Below are positions 38,386 through 45,396 of a stretch of 64,000 bases of DNA, one piece after another. The DNA is from Hyphococcus luteus (GTDB taxonomy: Bacteria > Pseudomonadota > Alphaproteobacteria > Caulobacterales > Parvularculaceae): assembly GCF_002943565.1 (NCBI RefSeq), contig NZ_PJCH01000011.1, positions 62,001-126,000 of the forward strand. The letters run 5' to 3'. Within the stretch, counting starts at the first letter, position 1. Each line of letters opens with the position of its first letter. Below the pieces are notes generated by a model. The model had not been told where the DNA came from, ran no database searches, and saw only the letters and a program-made list of their open reading frames with translations. Both the position numbers and the translations under genes were made by a program.

Positions 38386-38467
38386 AAGACGCTCCTGCTC
38401 TCTCAAGTTCGTCTTTTGTTCTATATTCCCTTTTTGTTCTCGTGTCACGTAAAAGGCGATATAGTAC

Positions 38468-38495
38468 TTGACGTACCCAAAATAAGTGTTACATT
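38468..38495 (+). promoter_or_regulatory. sigma-70-like promoter of the transposase gene
   Basis: TTGACG at 38468-38473 and TACATT at 38490-38495 are spaced 16 nt, a fair match to a housekeeping promoter. They lie 25 nt before the transposase ATG in an AT-rich leader. The match is by eye and unproven. Confidence 0.45.
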
Positions 38496-38497
38496 AG

Positions 38498-38516
38498 GCT
38501 TATCAAAAGGATAAGC
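38498..38516 (+). promoter_or_regulatory. hairpin covering the transposase ribosome binding site
   Basis: GCTTATC at 38498-38504 and GATAAGC at 38510-38516 form a perfect 7 bp stem with a 5 nt loop. The AAAGGA ribosome binding site lies across the loop and right arm, 4 nt before the ATG at 38520. The hairpin could hold transposase translation low, as in other insertion sequences; this is inference. Confidence 0.5.
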
Positions 38517-38519
38517 ACC

Positions 38520-39488
38520 ATGTCGGCACTTTCAGCAAAACATTTCCACGACGAAAAAGCAGCTTACAGCTACGTCGAGAGCAGATTATGGCCCAACGGG
38601 CCGGTTTGCCCTCACTGTGGCGGCGTCGAACGTATTGGCGCGCTGAAAGGCAAGTCCACCCGGATTGGCGTCTACAAGTGCTACCAGTGCCGCAAGCCCT
38701 TCACTGTTAAAGTCGGGACCGTCTTTGAATCGAGCCATATACCGCTTCGCGTCTGGCTTCAGGCGATCTTCCTGATGGCCGGGTCCAAGAAGGGCATCAG
38801 CTCAAACCAGCTTTCCCGCGCCCTCTCCGTGACCGTCAAAACCGCTTGGTTCATGTCTCACCGCATCAGAGAAGCTATGCGCGAGGGCGATCTCGCCCCG
38901 TTCGGCTCCACCGGCGGCGCCGTCGAGGTGGACGAGACCTTCATCGGCAAGGACAAGCAAAACCCCTACGTCAAGCAGGGACGCGGCTATCAGCATAAGA
39001 ACAAGGTTCTTTCGCTCGTGGACCGCGAGACCGGCAAGGCCCGCTCCTATGTCGTGGATGACCTCAAGGCCTCCACCGTCGCCCCGATCCTCTCGGAGAA
39101 CATCTCCCGCGAGGCGCGGCTGATGACCGATGAAGCCGCCTTCTACAAGGGTCTTGGCTGGAACTTCGCCGAGCATGGCGTCGTGAACCATTCCAAGGAC
39201 GAATATGTCAGCAAGGCCGACCATACCGTCCACACCAACACCATTGAGGGCTTCTTCTCGATCTTTAAGCGGGGCATGCGCGGCGTTTACCAGCATTGCG
39301 ACAAGCGCCACCTGCACCGCTATGTGGCTGAATTTGACTTCCGCTACTCCAACCGGATCGCCACCGGTTGCGACGACAAGGAACGCGCTGATAGAATACT
39401 CGACGGTGTGACCGGCAAGCGCCTGACCTATCAAACAACTCGTTGCGCAGGCCCGGCCTTCCACTGGAAAGAAGGACGCGCGTGGTAG
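38520..39488 (+). CDS. IS1595 family transposase (ISXO2-like DDE)
   Basis: The 322-residue protein has an N-terminal zinc ribbon (CPHCGGVERIG and YKCYQCRKPF, residues about 24-60) and then the DDE catalytic domain. The first acidic site is in VEVDETFIG and the second in LMTDEAAFYKGL. The third is in HTNTIEGFFSIFKRG, where the family uses an Asn/Glu arrangement. Length is normal and no frameshift is seen, so it may be active. The stop overlaps the start of the next small ORF. The family moves by DDE chemistry related to IS1016 and ISXO2. Confidence 0.92.
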   Translation: MSALSAKHFHDEKAAYSYVESRLWPNGPVCPHCGGVERIGALKGKSTRIGVYKCYQCRKPFTVKVGTVFESSHIPLRVWLQAIFLMAGSKKGISSNQLSRALSVTVKTAWFMSHRIREAMREGDLAPFGSTGGAVEVDETFIGKDKQNPYVKQGRGYQHKNKVLSLVDRETGKARSYVVDDLKASTVAPILSENISREARLMTDEAAFYKGLGWNFAEHGVVNHSKDEYVSKADHTVHTNTIEGFFSIFKRGMRGVYQHCDKRHLHRYVAEFDFRYSNRIATGCDDKERADRILDGVTGKRLTYQTTRCAGPAFHWKEGRAW

Positions 39489-39679
39489 AGAAGAAAAAGA
39501 AGACCAAAACCAAACTTACTCAGGTCACGGACAAGAACCAGTCGGAGCAATTCCGAAAGGTCGCGCGCGAATTAGAAGCCGATGGCGAACTAGACCTCAC
39601 AGAGGCTGAGGAGAAGTTTGAGAAGGCAATTGATAAGCTGACAAAGAAACGCGCTCAACCAAGCGATTCAGAGTCCTAG
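39482..39679 (+). CDS. small Lys-rich protein coupled to the transposase
   Basis: The 65-residue protein starts with a run of Lys (VEKKKKTKTKL), then a helix with FRKVARELEADGELDLTEAEEKF, here only summarised as an acidic/basic helical segment. I chose the GTG at 39482 because AAGGA precedes it; it overlaps the transposase stop by 7 nt, so translation is coupled. Similar small proteins follow related transposases in my memory. The function is unknown; regulation of the transposase is a guess. Its 3' end overlaps the opposing gene at 39668 by 12 nt. Confidence 0.65.
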   Translation: MVEKKKKTKTKLTQVTDKNQSEQFRKVARELEADGELDLTEAEEKFEKAIDKLTKKRAQPSDSES

Positions 39680-40078
39680 CTGCTTCTTTGCATACTCATA
39701 AGCCCAAGGCGGAGTGAAACTAGATGAAAATAACCCGCCCACAATACGCTCATAGACTTCCATACTTACGTCATTCTCAATCGCGTAATCGCCGCTCGTT
39801 ATCAGCTTCTCTATGGCAGAAACGTAGAACTTCCGCGTATATCCATACAGAATGATTGTCTTATGAACCACACGCGGATGATCGCCCGGCATCAAAACGC
39901 ATGACTCGTCGCCCCTTCCTTTGAACGAGCCCATGGGCACGGCAAGAACATCATTCTTTTCGCATGGCGGCGTGACACAAACAAATACATGAGGCGTTTC
40001 CGGCTTGTATATGCTGCCGGTGCCTGGAACGGTGAAAGCTACCCGCTCCTCAATGAGCATGCTGTGGGAGTCTGGCAA
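39668..40078 (-). CDS. candidate toxin of a Panacea-type toxin-antitoxin pair
   Basis: The 136-residue protein is not recognised with certainty. It has a compact beta-rich look: RVAFTVPGTGSIYKPET, HVFVCVTPP, then DVLAVPMGSFKG and GDHPRVVHKTIILYGY. The last pattern recalls PemK/MazF-like folds. It follows the Panacea-domain gene and its TTG start at 40078 lies inside that gene, with AGGAAA 5-6 nt upstream; an ATG at 40060 is the alternative. The C-terminus (WAYEYAKKQLGL) is helical. Position as second gene after a Panacea antitoxin makes it the toxin candidate, by inference. Confidence 0.55.
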   Translation of the reverse strand: MPDSHSMLIEERVAFTVPGTGSIYKPETPHVFVCVTPPCEKNDVLAVPMGSFKGRGDESCVLMPGDHPRVVHKTIILYGYTRKFYVSAIEKLITSGDYAIENDVSMEVYERIVGGLFSSSFTPPWAYEYAKKQLGL

Positions 40079-40625
40079 TTGCTTTCCTGAAGCTCTCTAT
40101 TTCATCAGAAAGCGATTGCGCATCGGCAGCGCCGACAGCAGTCAACATATCTTTGACCGTAATCGGAAGCCTTCCTTGCTCAAGTTCAGTATATTCAGGG
40201 CAGTTTTTGTGGGTATAGTTACGTATTTCGGACGCGGTTAAGTGTTTGAACTTGTTCCAAACCTCCTCCAAAACGGCAACATCAGCCTTGCTGAGATGAT
40301 CGGGGTCGATCTCGCCGGCGAGTTTTACAGTCCGGTCATCATCCTCGCTGACAGCAATCTGTTTCCACGCCGGGTGATCAATTTCTCCGTTGATCCCGTT
40401 CAAGGCTGAAGACGCTATGGGGCCGTGCGGAAGCGAATAGAACTCATCTAAGTTCATCAGCATTCCGTAGCGCTCTAGATAGAGCCTTTCAGCAAGATAG
40501 ATCAGCTTGATCAGCTTTAGCTTCTCAAGCCCTTCGGCTCCGGCCTTCTGACAGAAATATGCGGCGATCTGCGCCGCTTTCTCATTGTCGAAGCCTGCCG
40601 CGGGTTCTCGTTGCGCGTCCGCCAC
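40050..40625 (-). CDS. Panacea (DUF4065/SocA) domain antitoxin
   Basis: The predicted protein has 191 residues. The Panacea signature is clear: KLKLIKLIYLAERLYLERYG, then FYSLPHGPIASSALNGI and later VLEEVWNKFKHLTASEIRNYTH. Panacea proteins are antitoxins in many unrelated pairs and SocA adaptors in Caulobacter. I chose the GTG at 40625 because TGGAGG lies just before it and because three operator-like repeats (40638-40724) would otherwise be inside the coding region; an ATG at 40679 is the longer option. It precedes the toxin candidate and overlaps it. Confidence 0.8.
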   Translation of the reverse strand: MADAQREPAAGFDNEKAAQIAAYFCQKAGAEGLEKLKLIKLIYLAERLYLERYGMLMNLDEFYSLPHGPIASSALNGINGEIDHPAWKQIAVSEDDDRTVKLAGEIDPDHLSKADVAVLEEVWNKFKHLTASEIRNYTHKNCPEYTELEQGRLPITVKDMLTAVGAADAQSLSDEIESFRKAIARLPQHAH

Positions 40626-40637
40626 TTGGCCTCCAGT

Positions 40638-40724
40638 CCCCCAACTAGATATTTGTATCTCCCGAGCAGAGGCTACCATATCTAGGTATTGGGGAAAATT
40701 TCTCCCACTAGATCATATAGTTGG
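40638..40724. promoter_or_regulatory. operator-like inverted repeats before the Panacea pair
   Basis: Three copies of a motif near CCCAACTAGATAT occur: CCCCCAACTAGATAT at 40638-40652, its reverse form ATATCTAGGTATTGGGG at 40678-40694, and CTCCCACTAGATCATAT at 40702-40718. A partial reverse copy ATATAGTTGG ends at 40724. They lie just upstream of the preferred antitoxin start. Autoregulation by the antitoxin or the complex is common in such pairs and would fit. Confidence 0.5.
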
Positions 40725-40792
40725 AATCACAGAGTTCGCAATATCCGAACTTTCCCGATTCGATGGGTACGCAAAGTAAAATATTGCCACGT

Positions 40793-40821
40793 AAAAACCG
40801 GCGGGAAAATTCTCCCGCCGG
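40793..40821 (-). terminator. intrinsic terminator of the CatB-type gene
   Basis: CCGGCGGGA at 40798-40806 pairs with TCCCGCCGG at 40813-40821 (9 bp stem, 6 nt loop). On the minus strand the stem is followed by TTTTT. It lies 27 nt after the stop of the acetyltransferase gene at 40849. Confidence 0.75.
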
Positions 40822-40848: not shown

Positions 40849-41511
40849 TCAGTTGCTTGCCTGTTCCAGGGCGGCGAGATCCGCGCCGCGAATGGCGGCG
40901 AGATTGGCCGTGACCTTCTCCGCCGGCCAGGCCCACCAGGCGATGTCGAGCAGCCGATCAACCGTCGCCTCGTCGAAGCGGCGCTTCACGGTCCGGGCGG
41001 GATTGCCGACGGCGATCCCATAAGCCGGGACGTCCGAGGCGACCACGGCGCGCGAGCCGATGATCGCCCCATCGCCGATTGTGACGCCGGGCAGGATCAT
41101 CGCCTCGGTCCCGATCCAGACATCGTTGCCGATGACAGTATGCCCACGCGAGCCGCTCGCCCAGTCATGGCCCGGGTCCTCCCAGCCCTTGCCGAAAATA
41201 GCGAAGGGATAGGTCGAAAACCCGTCGAGACGGTGATTGGCGCCGTTCATGATGAACTGGACGCCCGCCGCAATGGCGCAATAGCGCCCGATCACGAGAC
41301 GGTCGCCGAGATGTTCGAAATGATACCGGACGCAACGCTCGAGGAAGCGCTCCGGCCCGGCGACGGGGTCGTCGTAATAGGTGTACTCGCCGATCTCGAC
41401 ATTGGGGCGGTCGATCAGCGGCTTTAAAAATCCCACTTGCGGGAAGCCGTCCATGGGATGGGGATGATTGGGATCAGGCCCGCATTGCGGGCTTTCAGGA
41501 ATAGCAGACAT
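40849..41511 (-). CDS. CatB/Vat-type hexapeptide-repeat O-acetyltransferase
   Basis: The predicted protein has 220 residues. After [12 protein letters not shown] come hexapeptide repeats of a left-handed beta helix, with [20 protein letters not shown] carrying the catalytic His, and later [19 protein letters not shown] and [12 protein letters not shown]. Family members acetylate chloramphenicol or streptogramins with acetyl-CoA, and many chromosomal copies have other unknown acceptors. I chose the ATG at 41511 with CGGAG upstream. The gene ends in a clear terminator. A resistance phenotype should not be assumed from sequence. Confidence 0.85.
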
Positions 41512-41666
41512 AAGAACTCCGGTCGGAAAGAGGGATCGCGGCGCCTCCAAGGGCGCTGGGCTCAGCGGTTCCGGCCTAGTTGTTCATTGTCCGAAGTTCC
41601 TTCTTTCTCGTTCGGGGGCATGGCTATAGCCCCGTGCAGACAAAGAGGCAAGCGCGCCGGCAACGT

Positions 41667-42284
41667 TCAGTTCAGGGCGTCATAGCTGATCGGCAGCAGC
41701 GGCCCGCCGAATTCCGCCTTGCTCGCCTCATATTCCTCCGCCGTCAGACGGCGGATTTCGCACAAGCACCAGATTTCACCGGATGAGCTGATATGCGGCG
41801 TATCCATGCCGCGAAAATAGACAACGCCTTCGGGCGTGCTGATCCGGTTGAGGGAGATCGTCATGGCGAGATCGCCGGAGAAAATGCCGGCGCGCTCCCA
41901 TTGCGACATGAGCGCGTCCGCCTCGTCGCCAAAACGGCCATAGAGGCTGGCGCCGCAGCTCAGCTCGCTCACCCCGACTTCGCGCGCGAGACTGGCGCTC
42001 GTCTCCACGAAGAGAGCGCCTTCCTTCATCAGGGACGCCGGCCAGGCGGCGTATTGCACCCGCAGCTTCAACATGCGGTCCTGTTTGCTGTCGAGCGCGC
42101 GCTGAAGAATATCACGGATTGTCCGGCGATGACGCAAGGACGGCGCATCCAGATTACGCTCCCAGCGTGAGATTGACGCCTGATTGACATTGAGCAATTC
42201 GGCAAGGTCGCGTTGCGACATGCCCTGTCGCGCACGTAGCGCGCGCAAGGTGCGCGACCAGTAGGAAACATCAATGCGAGTCAT
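41667..42284 (-). CDS. XRE-family helix-turn-helix regulator
   Basis: The 205-residue protein starts with an HTH domain: LRALRARQGMSQRDLAELL, then VNQASISRWERN at about residues 32-43. The C-terminal 130 residues form an unidentified domain with VGVSELSCGASLYGRFG and GEIWCLCEIRRL, perhaps a ligand-sensing module. It diverges from the TonB receptor gene and shares its intergenic region, where Pho-box-like repeats lie. It may regulate itself or the neighbour, but no operator for it was identified. Confidence 0.75.
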   Translation of the reverse strand: MTRIDVSYWSRTLRALRARQGMSQRDLAELLNVNQASISRWERNLDAPSLRHRRTIRDILQRALDSKQDRMLKLRVQYAAWPASLMKEGALFVETSASLAREVGVSELSCGASLYGRFGDEADALMSQWERAGIFSGDLAMTISLNRISTPEGVVYFRGMDTPHISSSGEIWCLCEIRRLTAEEYEASKAEFGGPLLPISYDALN

Positions 42285-42368
42285 CGGCGCCCCTCGTCAT
42301 CAGGCCCCTTCTCTCCCCTAGCAAGCGCGCAAGACAAATTTGTGACGGCGATGCGTTTTGATGCGCAA

Positions 42369-42424
42369 CTATCATCAGCCCTTCATAAAACTGTAAAAGA
42401 TGCGTCGCGCTGCGCCCCTATAGG
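42369..42424 (+). promoter_or_regulatory. candidate Pho box and -10 element
   Basis: Four 7-bp units occur at exact 11 bp steps: CTATCAT (42369), CCTTCAT (42380), CTGTAAA (42391) and GCGTCGC (42402). Against the PhoB consensus CTGTCAT they match at 6, 5, 5 and 3 positions. The linker after the second unit is AAAA, as in classic boxes. TATAGG at 42419-42424 lies 10 bp after the last unit, where PhoB-dependent promoters have their -10. The genes downstream include a glycerophosphodiesterase, a familiar Pho-regulon member. The site is predicted by eye only. Confidence 0.6.
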
Positions 42425-42459
42425 ACCGGCTGACTTAGTTCAGTAAGGATCGGTTAATC

Positions 42460-44412
42460 ATGGGGAACCCTCAATCCATTCGCAACGTTTTCGCCGGCGC
42501 AGTTTCGCTCGCCGCCCTGACGCAAGGGATCGCCGCCGCACAAGAGCCCGGCGCAACGGAAAAAGACGAAATCATCGTCAGCGCTTCGCGCTCCGCCCAG
42601 TCGATCGAGCAGCTCGGCGACGCGGTCAGCATCATTGATGCGGCCGCGATCGAACTGCAGCAACTGACGACTCTCGACGAAGCGCTGGAGCGCGCGCCGG
42701 GCGTCGCCATCACCCGCTCTGGCGGCGTCGGCCAGAACACCCAAGTGCGCATGCGCGGCTTCACCTCCAAGCATGTGCTGGTGATGATCGACGGCGTGAA
42801 GATCAACAACCCGTCGGAAGCCGACAACCAGTTCGGCATCGACCATTTGTTTCTCGACAATGTCGAACGCGTCGAAGTGCTGCGCGGCCCGCAATCGGGC
42901 GTTTACGGCGCCGACGCCGTCGCCGGCGTCATCAACGTCGTGACCAAGCGTCCGGAAGGCCCCTTGGAGCTGCGCGGTTCAGGCATGTACGGCTCCAACG
43001 ACACCTATGAAGTGAGCGCCGGCGCACAAGGCGGCAACGATCTCTTTGGCTTGTCGGGCCTCGTCTCCTATTACGACACCGAGGGCATTTCGCTGTCGAG
43101 CCGCGCGCCCGGCAATGTCGAGCGCGACGGTTATGACAATCTGACGGCGCAAATGCGCGGCGAATTGCGGCCAACGGAAAATCTCGAGCTCAGCGCCTGG
43201 GTGCGCTACACGGACGCCAGAAATGAAATCGACGCCGGCTATCTGGCGGTCGACAATCCGGAAGGCCTGCCAGGTTATCTCTTCCAGGACAGCGACGGCT
43301 ACAATGACAGCGAACAGATTTTCGCGGCGCTGAAAGGCGTCTGGAGCACTTTCGACGGCAAGCTTGAGCACACCGCGCAGGTCTCCCTCGTCGATCTCAA
43401 CGGCCTTTACGTCGCGCCCGGCTCGGAACAGGAAAGCGAAGGCCGCACCATCGAAGGGCTTTACTACGCCACGGCGCGCCCGGCCGAGTGGGCGACCTTT
43501 ATCGCCGGCGCGGAATATCGCGATGAACGCGCGACCTTCGAACAACCCGTCGGTTATGCTTATGCGCTGATTGACGACAGCATCTACAACGCCGCCGGTT
43601 TCGCTGAAGCCAATATCGAAGTCCTCGACGGCGTCTATCTCTCCGGCGCCGTGCGTTACGATTACAATGAGAAATTCGAGGGCGAGTTCACCTATCGCGT
43701 CACCGCAGCCTATAATTTGCCGGACGGCTTCGATCTGCCCGGCGTCGATACGAAACTGCGCTCGTCCTATGGCGTCGGCGCCGAAGCGCCGGGCCTGCGC
43801 CAGCTTCTCGGCTCCTCTGCGACCTATCAGGGCAATCCGGACCTGCAGCCTGAATCGAGCTGGATGGTCGATTTCGGGATCGATCAGCAGCTCGAAAACG
43901 GCCTCGCCGGATGGAGCGTCACCTATTATGTAGGCGAAGCCGATGACGGCATTTTCAACATCACCGATCCGGTAACCTTCATCTCTTCGCCGCAAAACGT
44001 GAAAAGCCCCGTCGACATGGAAGGACTTGAGCTCGACTTTCGCTTCTCGCCCGCTCCCTGGATCGAAGCGCGCGGCGCCTACACGCATATGACCGTCGGG
44101 CTTGAAGGCAGCGGCGTACAGCTTTTCGGGCGCCCGAAGAACGAAGGCAGCGCCGCGATCACCTTCCGCCCCCTGCCCGACATTTCGCTGACCGTGGACG
44201 GATATTGGCGCGACGCGTTCTTCAGCGATTATCCGAGCAGTTATGTCATGCCCGGATATTCCGTCTACAGTCTTTCCGCCGTCTGGGAGATCAACGACTA
44301 TCTGAAGCTGTCGGCGAACCTCCACAACATCGCCGACAAATTCTACGAAGAAAAACTCGGCGATTCGACCTATGGCCGCACCGCGCAGGTTCGGCTGACG
44401 GCGCGCTACTAG
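42460..44412 (+). CDS. TonB-dependent outer membrane receptor
   Basis: The 650-residue protein has a signal peptide (cleaved near QGIAAAQ), a TonB-box region (DEIIVSASRS), a plug domain (ALERAPGVAITRSGG, VEVLRGPQSGVYGADAVAG) and a C-terminal beta barrel ending with Tyr in LTARY. The plug resembles BtuB-like receptors, but no cobalamin riboswitch is seen upstream. Instead a Pho-box-like promoter precedes it and a glycerophosphodiesterase gene follows immediately (AGGAGG within the stop region). A phosphate-containing organic ligand is therefore suggested by inference. AAGGA precedes the ATG. Confidence 0.85.
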   Translation: MGNPQSIRNVFAGAVSLAALTQGIAAAQEPGATEKDEIIVSASRSAQSIEQLGDAVSIIDAAAIELQQLTTLDEALERAPGVAITRSGGVGQNTQVRMRGFTSKHVLVMIDGVKINNPSEADNQFGIDHLFLDNVERVEVLRGPQSGVYGADAVAGVINVVTKRPEGPLELRGSGMYGSNDTYEVSAGAQGGNDLFGLSGLVSYYDTEGISLSSRAPGNVERDGYDNLTAQMRGELRPTENLELSAWVRYTDARNEIDAGYLAVDNPEGLPGYLFQDSDGYNDSEQIFAALKGVWSTFDGKLEHTAQVSLVDLNGLYVAPGSEQESEGRTIEGLYYATARPAEWATFIAGAEYRDERATFEQPVGYAYALIDDSIYNAAGFAEANIEVLDGVYLSGAVRYDYNEKFEGEFTYRVTAAYNLPDGFDLPGVDTKLRSSYGVGAEAPGLRQLLGSSATYQGNPDLQPESSWMVDFGIDQQLENGLAGWSVTYYVGEADDGIFNITDPVTFISSPQNVKSPVDMEGLELDFRFSPAPWIEARGAYTHMTVGLEGSGVQLFGRPKNEGSAAITFRPLPDISLTVDGYWRDAFFSDYPSSYVMPGYSVYSLSAVWEINDYLKLSANLHNIADKFYEEKLGDSTYGRTAQVRLTARY

Positions 44413-44425
44413 GAGGGAAACGGCG

Positions 44426-45379
44426 ATGAATATGCGGTCAAGTCTTGTCCTGACGCTTCTTGGCGCTTTCGCATCGGCCTGCGCCACGCAGGCTGATGCT
44501 CCCATGGAGACAACGCCGCTCAATGAGATTGGCGCGCTTCTGGCGAAAGAAGACGGCGGCATGCCCGCTTTCTTTGACTGTTTGCGCGAGAACCACGCCG
44601 TGGTCATCAGCGCCCATCGCGGCGGCCCGGCGGCGGGCTATCCCGAAAACGCCCTTGAGACTTTGGCTCGCACCGCCTCGCTGATGCCGGCGCTTCTCGA
44701 AATCGACTCCCAGCGCAGTTCGGACGGCGTTTTGGTGCTGATGCATGACGACACGCTCGACCGCACCACCACGGGCGAAGGCCCGGTGGCGGAGAAAACC
44801 TTCGACGAGCTGCGCGCCTTGCGGCTCGTCGACAATGACGGCGAAGAAACGGCGTTTCAGATTCCGACCCTGGAAGAAGCGCTCGACTGGAGCGAAGGCC
44901 GCGCCATGCTCGCCCTCGACCGCAAGGATCCGATTTCCTATGAGGATCTCATCCGCATCGTCGAAAAGCATAACGCTTTCGGCCGGGTGATGTTCGCCAC
45001 GTATTCTCTCGATGACGCCATCAAGGTGGCCCGCCTCTCGCCGCGCGCGATGATCGTCACGCCGGTCGAAGGCGCTGATGATCTCGATACGCTAAAAGCC
45101 GGCGGCGTCGCCCTCGACCATGTGATTTCCTGGACCGGCACGGAAACGCCGCGCCCTGATCTTTATGCAGACCTCGCCGCGCAAGGCGTTGAATCCGCTT
45201 TCGCGACGCTCGGCTGGTGGACCGGGTCCTGGGACAGCCGCATCCGCATGCTGGAAGACGATACTCTCTATCTGAAAGTGACCCGTGGCGCGCATCTCGT
45301 CGCCACTGACCGCCCGCTTGTCGTCGCAGATGTTCTCCCCGGTTTCCGGCGCATCGGCCTTTGCATATCAAGGGAATGA
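44426..45379 (+). CDS. glycerophosphodiester phosphodiesterase, exported
   Basis: The 317-residue protein has a signal peptide, probably of lipoprotein type (FASAC). The GDPD TIM-barrel motifs are all present: SAHRGGPAAGYPENALE with the catalytic His and PEN, LLEIDSQRSSDG (metal-binding Glu/Asp) and LMHDDTLDRTT (second His). The enzyme splits glycerophosphodiesters into glycerol 3-phosphate and an alcohol outside the cytoplasm. AGGAGGG lies 8 nt upstream and spans the receptor stop, so the two genes are one operon. Confidence 0.88.
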   Translation: MNMRSSLVLTLLGAFASACATQADAPMETTPLNEIGALLAKEDGGMPAFFDCLRENHAVVISAHRGGPAAGYPENALETLARTASLMPALLEIDSQRSSDGVLVLMHDDTLDRTTTGEGPVAEKTFDELRALRLVDNDGEETAFQIPTLEEALDWSEGRAMLALDRKDPISYEDLIRIVEKHNAFGRVMFATYSLDDAIKVARLSPRAMIVTPVEGADDLDTLKAGGVALDHVISWTGTETPRPDLYADLAAQGVESAFATLGWWTGSWDSRIRMLEDDTLYLKVTRGAHLVATDRPLVVADVLPGFRRIGLCISRE

Positions 45380-45396
45380 AGAAACGCCGCCAGGCT

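Follow-up and report, generated by a model that had tools for sequence, protein, structure and literature searches.

Stand-alone Panacea domains have been found to neutralise their toxins directly, and Panacea has been proposed to act as a sensor (PMC10440598). The closest described systems to the locus of this study are the validated Panacea pairs of Pseudomonas moraviensis and Bifidobacterium ruminantium, in which the toxins lack database domains, are MazF-like by HHpred and inhibit protein synthesis (Kurata et al. 2022, PMC8832971). In a 64,000-nucleotide stretch of contig NZ_PJCH01000011.1 of Hyphococcus luteus, here called the window, we have analysed a pair of similar organisation, consisting of a Panacea gene, panA, and a partner gene, panT (Table 1). 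As in the PanAT pairs with PemK/MazF-like toxins (PMC8832971), the antitoxin comes first and the toxin has no curated domain and is remotely MazF-like; unlike the pairs of P. moraviensis and B. ruminantium, the pair of the window is the cargo of a transposon. It appears likely to us that this IS1595-family element near dnaE carries, besides its transposase and a small ORF, a type II operon in which a MazF-like PanT probably cuts RNA and is neutralised by PanA, and that the pair thereby aids the persistence of the element.

Table 1. Features of the element, its ends and its cargo (positions in the window)
Feature	Position	Strand	Evidence or remark
Left 8-bp target site duplication, ACGTAAAA	38447..38454		Repeated without change at 40789-40796; present once at the uninterrupted site (L123)
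Complete IS1595-family element	38455..40788		Empty site in G504 (L123), inverted ends, exact 8-bp target duplication
Left terminal inverted repeat, GGCGATATAGTACTTGACGTACCCA	38455..38479	+	20/25 match to right end
IS1595-family (ISXO2-like) transposase, 322 aa, intact	38520..39488	+	PF12762 E 2e-35, PF12760, NF033547 E 3e-58, above cut-offs
Small accessory ORF, ~65 aa	39482..39679	+	Overlaps transposase stop; profile matches; family in 15/27 related elements
PanT, toxin candidate, 130 aa	39668..40060	-	PHROG_19071 E 5.5e-8; AlphaFold2 pLDDT 89; Foldseek against PDB; Panacea linkage
PanA, Panacea-domain antitoxin, 191 aa from GTG	40050..40625	-	PF13274 E 3e-18; GGAGG 4 nt before GTG; alternative ATG at 40679
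Operator-like array: CCAACTAGAT 40641-40650, ATATCTAG 40678-40685, 21-bp pseudo-palindrome CCCACTAGATCATATAGTTGG 40704-40724	40640..40724		Modest statistics
Promoter-like site for panA-panT, TTGCGA-18-TATGAT	40712..40741	-	Consensus match only; no commoner than in shuffles
Right terminal inverted repeat, GGCAATATTTTACTTTGCGTACCCA	40764..40788	-	25 bp, pairs with left end
Right 8-bp target site duplication, ACGTAAAA	40789..40796		Copy of left duplication

The initial annotation had recognized a Panacea antitoxin gene with a preferred GTG start that overlaps its partner in antitoxin-first order, and each of these points is borne out: PanA scores 67 bits against the SocA_Panacea model (PF13274), well above its cut-off of 25.7, GGAGG precedes the GTG, and panA shares 11 nt with the 130-codon partner gene. 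A structure model of PanA built without an alignment reached a pLDDT of 46, too low for use. The length of 136 residues first given for the partner has to be revised, as it depends on a TTG start 18 nt upstream, while alignment with relatives favours the ATG at 40060. PanT belongs to PHROG_19071, a family of unknown function, shares only 20-32% identity with its relatives and has no match in Pfam, NCBIfam, PADLOC or among PDB sequences; a scan of viral contigs with the single PanT sequence returned no match, and family alignments were needed to find relatives there.

Evidence that PanA and PanT work together comes from their relatives. Sixty-five PanT-family loci, some of them near-identical, were collected by searching with the partner rather than with PanA. 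At 63 of them, in several species, the gene immediately upstream on the same strand matches the PanA profile and lies within 100 nt, the two genes overlapping by 1-10 nt in most cases. The two exceptions are a locus with PanA on the other strand (L065) and a contig that ends too early to contain PanA (L084). These loci occur in Proteobacteria, Spirochaetes, Planctomycetes, Synergistaceae, Fibrobacter and Dehalococcoidia, on plasmids of Phaeobacter, Acetobacter, Endozoicomonas and Acinetobacter, and in phages of Yersinia, Vibrio, Klebsiella, Escherichia and Pseudomonas. Public records name the upstream gene Panacea or DUF4065 and leave the partner as a hypothetical protein. The co-occurrence in other genomes that had been proposed as a check is thus found, and the partner is not, as would have spoken against the pair, unlinked to Panacea genes elsewhere. 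Because the linkage is obligate, the toxin-antitoxin reading is well supported, and on sequence grounds panA and panT appear to form a real toxin-antitoxin pair. Other partners are also used by Panacea genes, and a PanT-type partner is present at four of the 29 Panacea loci sampled in the class of the window. The genome of H. luteus itself has a second Panacea gene (L095, contig 10), which overlaps a gene whose 131-aa product, of another toxin type, appears to have two membrane helices.

It had also been suggested that PanT could be a new type of toxin for Panacea pairs. This suggestion does not stand, since MazF-like Panacea toxins were already validated in 2022 (PMC8832971). Moreover, the authors of that study put the residues MIFSEQKVAQ back at the N terminus of P. 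moraviensis PanA (PMC8832971), and the PanA of Pseudomonas phage Sirocco, whose partner belongs to the PanT family, begins with all ten of them. From this match the PanT family is likely the same as the family of the P. moraviensis toxin WP_083201923.1, the link between them being solely the PanA decapeptide by way of Sirocco. A search of viral contigs for the P. moraviensis PanA start found none, and when genomes from the order to which G395 belongs were searched for partners of the Sirocco type, only two, both already known, had one.

The PemK-like look that had been noticed in the partner is supported by its predicted fold. The AlphaFold2 model of PanT, made from 38 sequences, has a pLDDT of 89 and a pTM of 0.83, and nearly all of its top 50 Foldseek matches in the PDB are MazF, Kid or CcdB, led by MazF of E. 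coli, with those of B. cereus and D. radiodurans also among the best (probability 1.00, E only 3e-3, TM up to 0.68 by target length). Its viral structural matches are mostly PemK-like proteins. PanT is therefore predicted to have a MazF-like fold and resembles the PemK family in this model; its predicted strand order is also that of the MazF/Kid endoribonucleases, but it differs from them in having no significant sequence similarity, the profile-profile comparison with PemK (hhalign) giving co-linear but not significant probabilities of 0.9% and 3.2%. It differs further in its invariant residues, which in the 38 sequences are H24, D51, C54 and H61. The arginine of the RP motif is the catalytic arginine of MazF. 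In the profile comparison, which is not significant, H24 aligns to this arginine, and the catalytic arginine is not conserved in PanT. The active site may accordingly differ from that of MazF, for H24 takes the place of the catalytic arginine and D51, C54 and H61 are invariant as well, so that PanT could be inactive as an RNase, active in some other way, or CcdB-like. In the last case the barrel would be MazF-like and yet belong to a poison of, for example, DNA gyrase, a reading to which both the histidine in place of the arginine and the presence of CcdB among the Foldseek matches lend something. We consider it unlikely, since the CcdB structures rank below those of MazF and the MazF-like Panacea toxin of Pseudomonas, a likely relative, specifically blocks protein synthesis. 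To our knowledge, CcdB has no conserved set of these H, D, C and H residues, which also counts against it. We thus keep to a probable RNA-cutting activity of PanT. Whatever the activity of PanT, its family pairs a predicted MazF-like fold with invariant residues that form an unusual set.

Where the initial annotation placed the pair beside a transposase gene, it was right that the transposase adjoins the pair but understated the relationship, as both lie within one and the same element. The sequence shows this to be a complete IS1595-family element of 2,334 bp with the Panacea pair as cargo. In the relative G504, the corresponding site reads ...GTCACGTAAAAACCGG... without interruption and with one copy of ACGTAAAA (86% nucleotide identity there), and the insert is absent from four further relatives as well. 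The insertion point lies between dnaE and an acetyltransferase gene, and the G+C content of the element is 53% against 60% for the window. Within the element, panA-panT is oriented opposite to the transposase gene. The notion that a resident chromosomal Panacea locus merely stands by chance next to an insertion sequence might draw on the finding that transposases are frequent near Panacea genes, from where Kurata et al. removed them as spurious partners; it is nevertheless hardly credible here and was rejected on the strength of the empty site and the target duplication, because G504 lacks the transposase and the pair alike, a single set of inverted ends and a single duplication bracket both, and related elements have cargo at the same place.

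Like other IS1595-family insertion sequences, this element has a transposase with an N-terminal Zn ribbon and an ISXO2-like DDE domain, ends that start with GG (here GGC) and an 8-bp target duplication, but it differs from them by its toxin-antitoxin pair and a conserved small ORF. The H. luteus genome contains this transposase once, apart from another that is 30% identical. This single copy, together with ends that match at only 20/25 positions, could be taken to mean that the element is a decayed remnant and its pair no longer functional. Such decay seems to us quite unlikely, as none of the four reading frames is interrupted, the target duplication is exact and PanT retains the invariant residues of its family; an element that functions, and that may be mobile today, is the reading that we prefer.

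The same transposase group was examined in 41 regions found by transposase query, in which we required ends matching at no fewer than 18 of 25 positions together with an 8-bp duplication and allowed for bare elements of about 1.1 kb. Twenty-seven bounded elements, the one in the window included, qualify, 25 of them with an exact duplication; they measure 1.86-4.31 kb (median 2.49 kb), and their consensus end is GGCGATTnTATACTTGACATACCCA. When the same end-finding was applied to controls, three of 23 window slices gave weak hits (16-17/25, duplication 7/8) and none of 23 shuffles did. All 27 elements have cargo and the same layout of ends and cargo as in the window, and there is no bare insertion sequence among them. 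As judged by curated Pfam match, record annotation or direct homology, the cargo is of toxin or RNase type in 13 of the 27: PIN (L131, annotated as VapC, L132, L169 and L172), DUF433 with PIN_10 (L168), Panacea (the window and L183), HEPN (L178 and its homologues L167, L181 and L193), NYN (L188) and DUF3800 (L180). Six further elements have only an R-N/H-x3-H motif that resembles HEPN, and a looser Pfam scan of these six gave no confirmation. In L132, L169 and L172 the PIN gene is preceded, in the antitoxin position, by a gene for a protein of 250-290 aa without a Pfam family, and these proteins are possibly a new antitoxin family. The bounded element of L172 (7564-9162) holds, next to its PIN pair, a fusion of a DNA methylase with an Mrr-like restriction part, and in that of L183 the Panacea gene has a different putative partner of about 137 aa. 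The small ORF family (QSxRFxxxAREL..DES..) is found regardless of cargo, six of its 15 elements lying outside the set from which the profile was built, and it may be a link between cargo and transposition.

These findings suggest that this group of IS1595 elements uses toxin-type modules as cargo, and the enrichment of such cargo in the group is suggestive. The balance tips slightly, in our judgement, towards an alphaproteobacterial IS1595 group that is specialised in carrying toxin-antitoxin and RNase-type modules, keeping its ends, its transposase and the small ORF (a possible link between cargo and transposition) and swapping the cargo among Panacea with a MazF-like partner, Panacea with another partner, PIN/VapC with novel antitoxins, DUF433/PIN, HEPN, NYN and DUF3800. 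A group of this kind would account for the movement of Panacea and other toxin modules from genome to genome. IS1595 transposases of another subgroup directly adjoin Panacea pairs at L011/L199 and at L229, with a MazF-like partner in L011 and a two-helix membrane protein in L229; these loci were left out of the count because no element ends were found there. Of the parts of this picture, the Panacea toxin type and toxin pairs in Tn3 transposons are known already, as are, reportedly, passenger genes in the IS1595 family. No description of toxin-antitoxin cargo carried by IS1595 elements came to light in a literature that consisted mostly of papers accessible without subscription. Tn3-family transposons likewise carry toxin-antitoxin pairs (Lima-Mendez et al. 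2020, PMC7157771); the pairs are of type II, belong to several toxin families, PIN and HEPN among them, and are exchanged between elements; the main text of PMC7157771 makes no mention of Panacea or MazF/PemK. The element in the window differs from these transposons, which have a TnpA of about 1,000 aa, a resolvase and ends of 38-40 bp, in having a 322-aa IS1595 transposase and 25-bp ends without a resolvase or res site.

The element has inserted about 0.2 kb upstream of dnaE. In the mechanism that we propose, PanA would be made first and, as a stand-alone Panacea domain, would bind PanT and silence it directly, whereas free PanT would probably cut RNA and stop translation and growth when PanA is lost. 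Cells that lose the element would be poisoned, and the element would probably persist through this addiction; the pair may in addition counter phages or rival elements. A primarily anti-phage role, with the pair as an abortive infection module and the element merely its carrier, is possible but rather doubtful. The PanT family is common in prophages and phages, a sensor function has been proposed for Panacea, and related elements hold HEPN, PIN and a methylase-restriction protein; against this, PanT has no match in PADLOC, PanA matches only an unnamed candidate model there (E 0.02), and there is no defence-island context within the window. Such a role is compatible with addiction, the reading that we prefer. 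The element is compact, holding a single transposase gene and a single toxin pair in 2.3 kb, and its empty site is exact; it is thus a far simpler test system than Tn3 for asking whether the cargo stabilises the transposon, aids its invasion or defends it.

How the operon would be regulated is suggested less clearly by the region upstream of panA. Three copies of one motif had been reported before the GTG. One of these, CCCAACTAGATAT, stands as an exact copy at 40640-40652, while the other sites are variants with mismatches or indels, and no second copy with up to three mismatches is found nearby. The half-sites at 40704-40713 (9/10) and 40715-40724 (9/10, inverted) form the 21-bp pseudo-palindrome over the promoter-like -10. 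CTAGAT/ATCTAG occurs eight times in the 64 kb, three of them within the 85-bp stretch 40640-40724; two additional copies with at most one mismatch were seen in only two of 300 shuffles, yet in 12 of 160 other pieces of the window. A generic palindrome test upstream of panA was not significant, and the same test upstream of panA in relatives found no shared operator sites. A putative operator is therefore plausible but weak. Autoregulation of the pair may occur, an idea weakened by PanA having no recognised DNA-binding domain; the authors of PMC10440598 likewise doubt that Panacea autoregulates.

Beyond the right end of the element, the acetyltransferase at 40849-41514 resembles Vat/CatB xenobiotic acetyltransferases, below all curated cut-offs, and several genomes of the genus contain close homologues of it. 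Further on, a block of 3.7 kb (41635-45393) with genes for a helix-turn-helix regulator, a TonB receptor and a phosphodiesterase-like protein is absent from G504 at that place.
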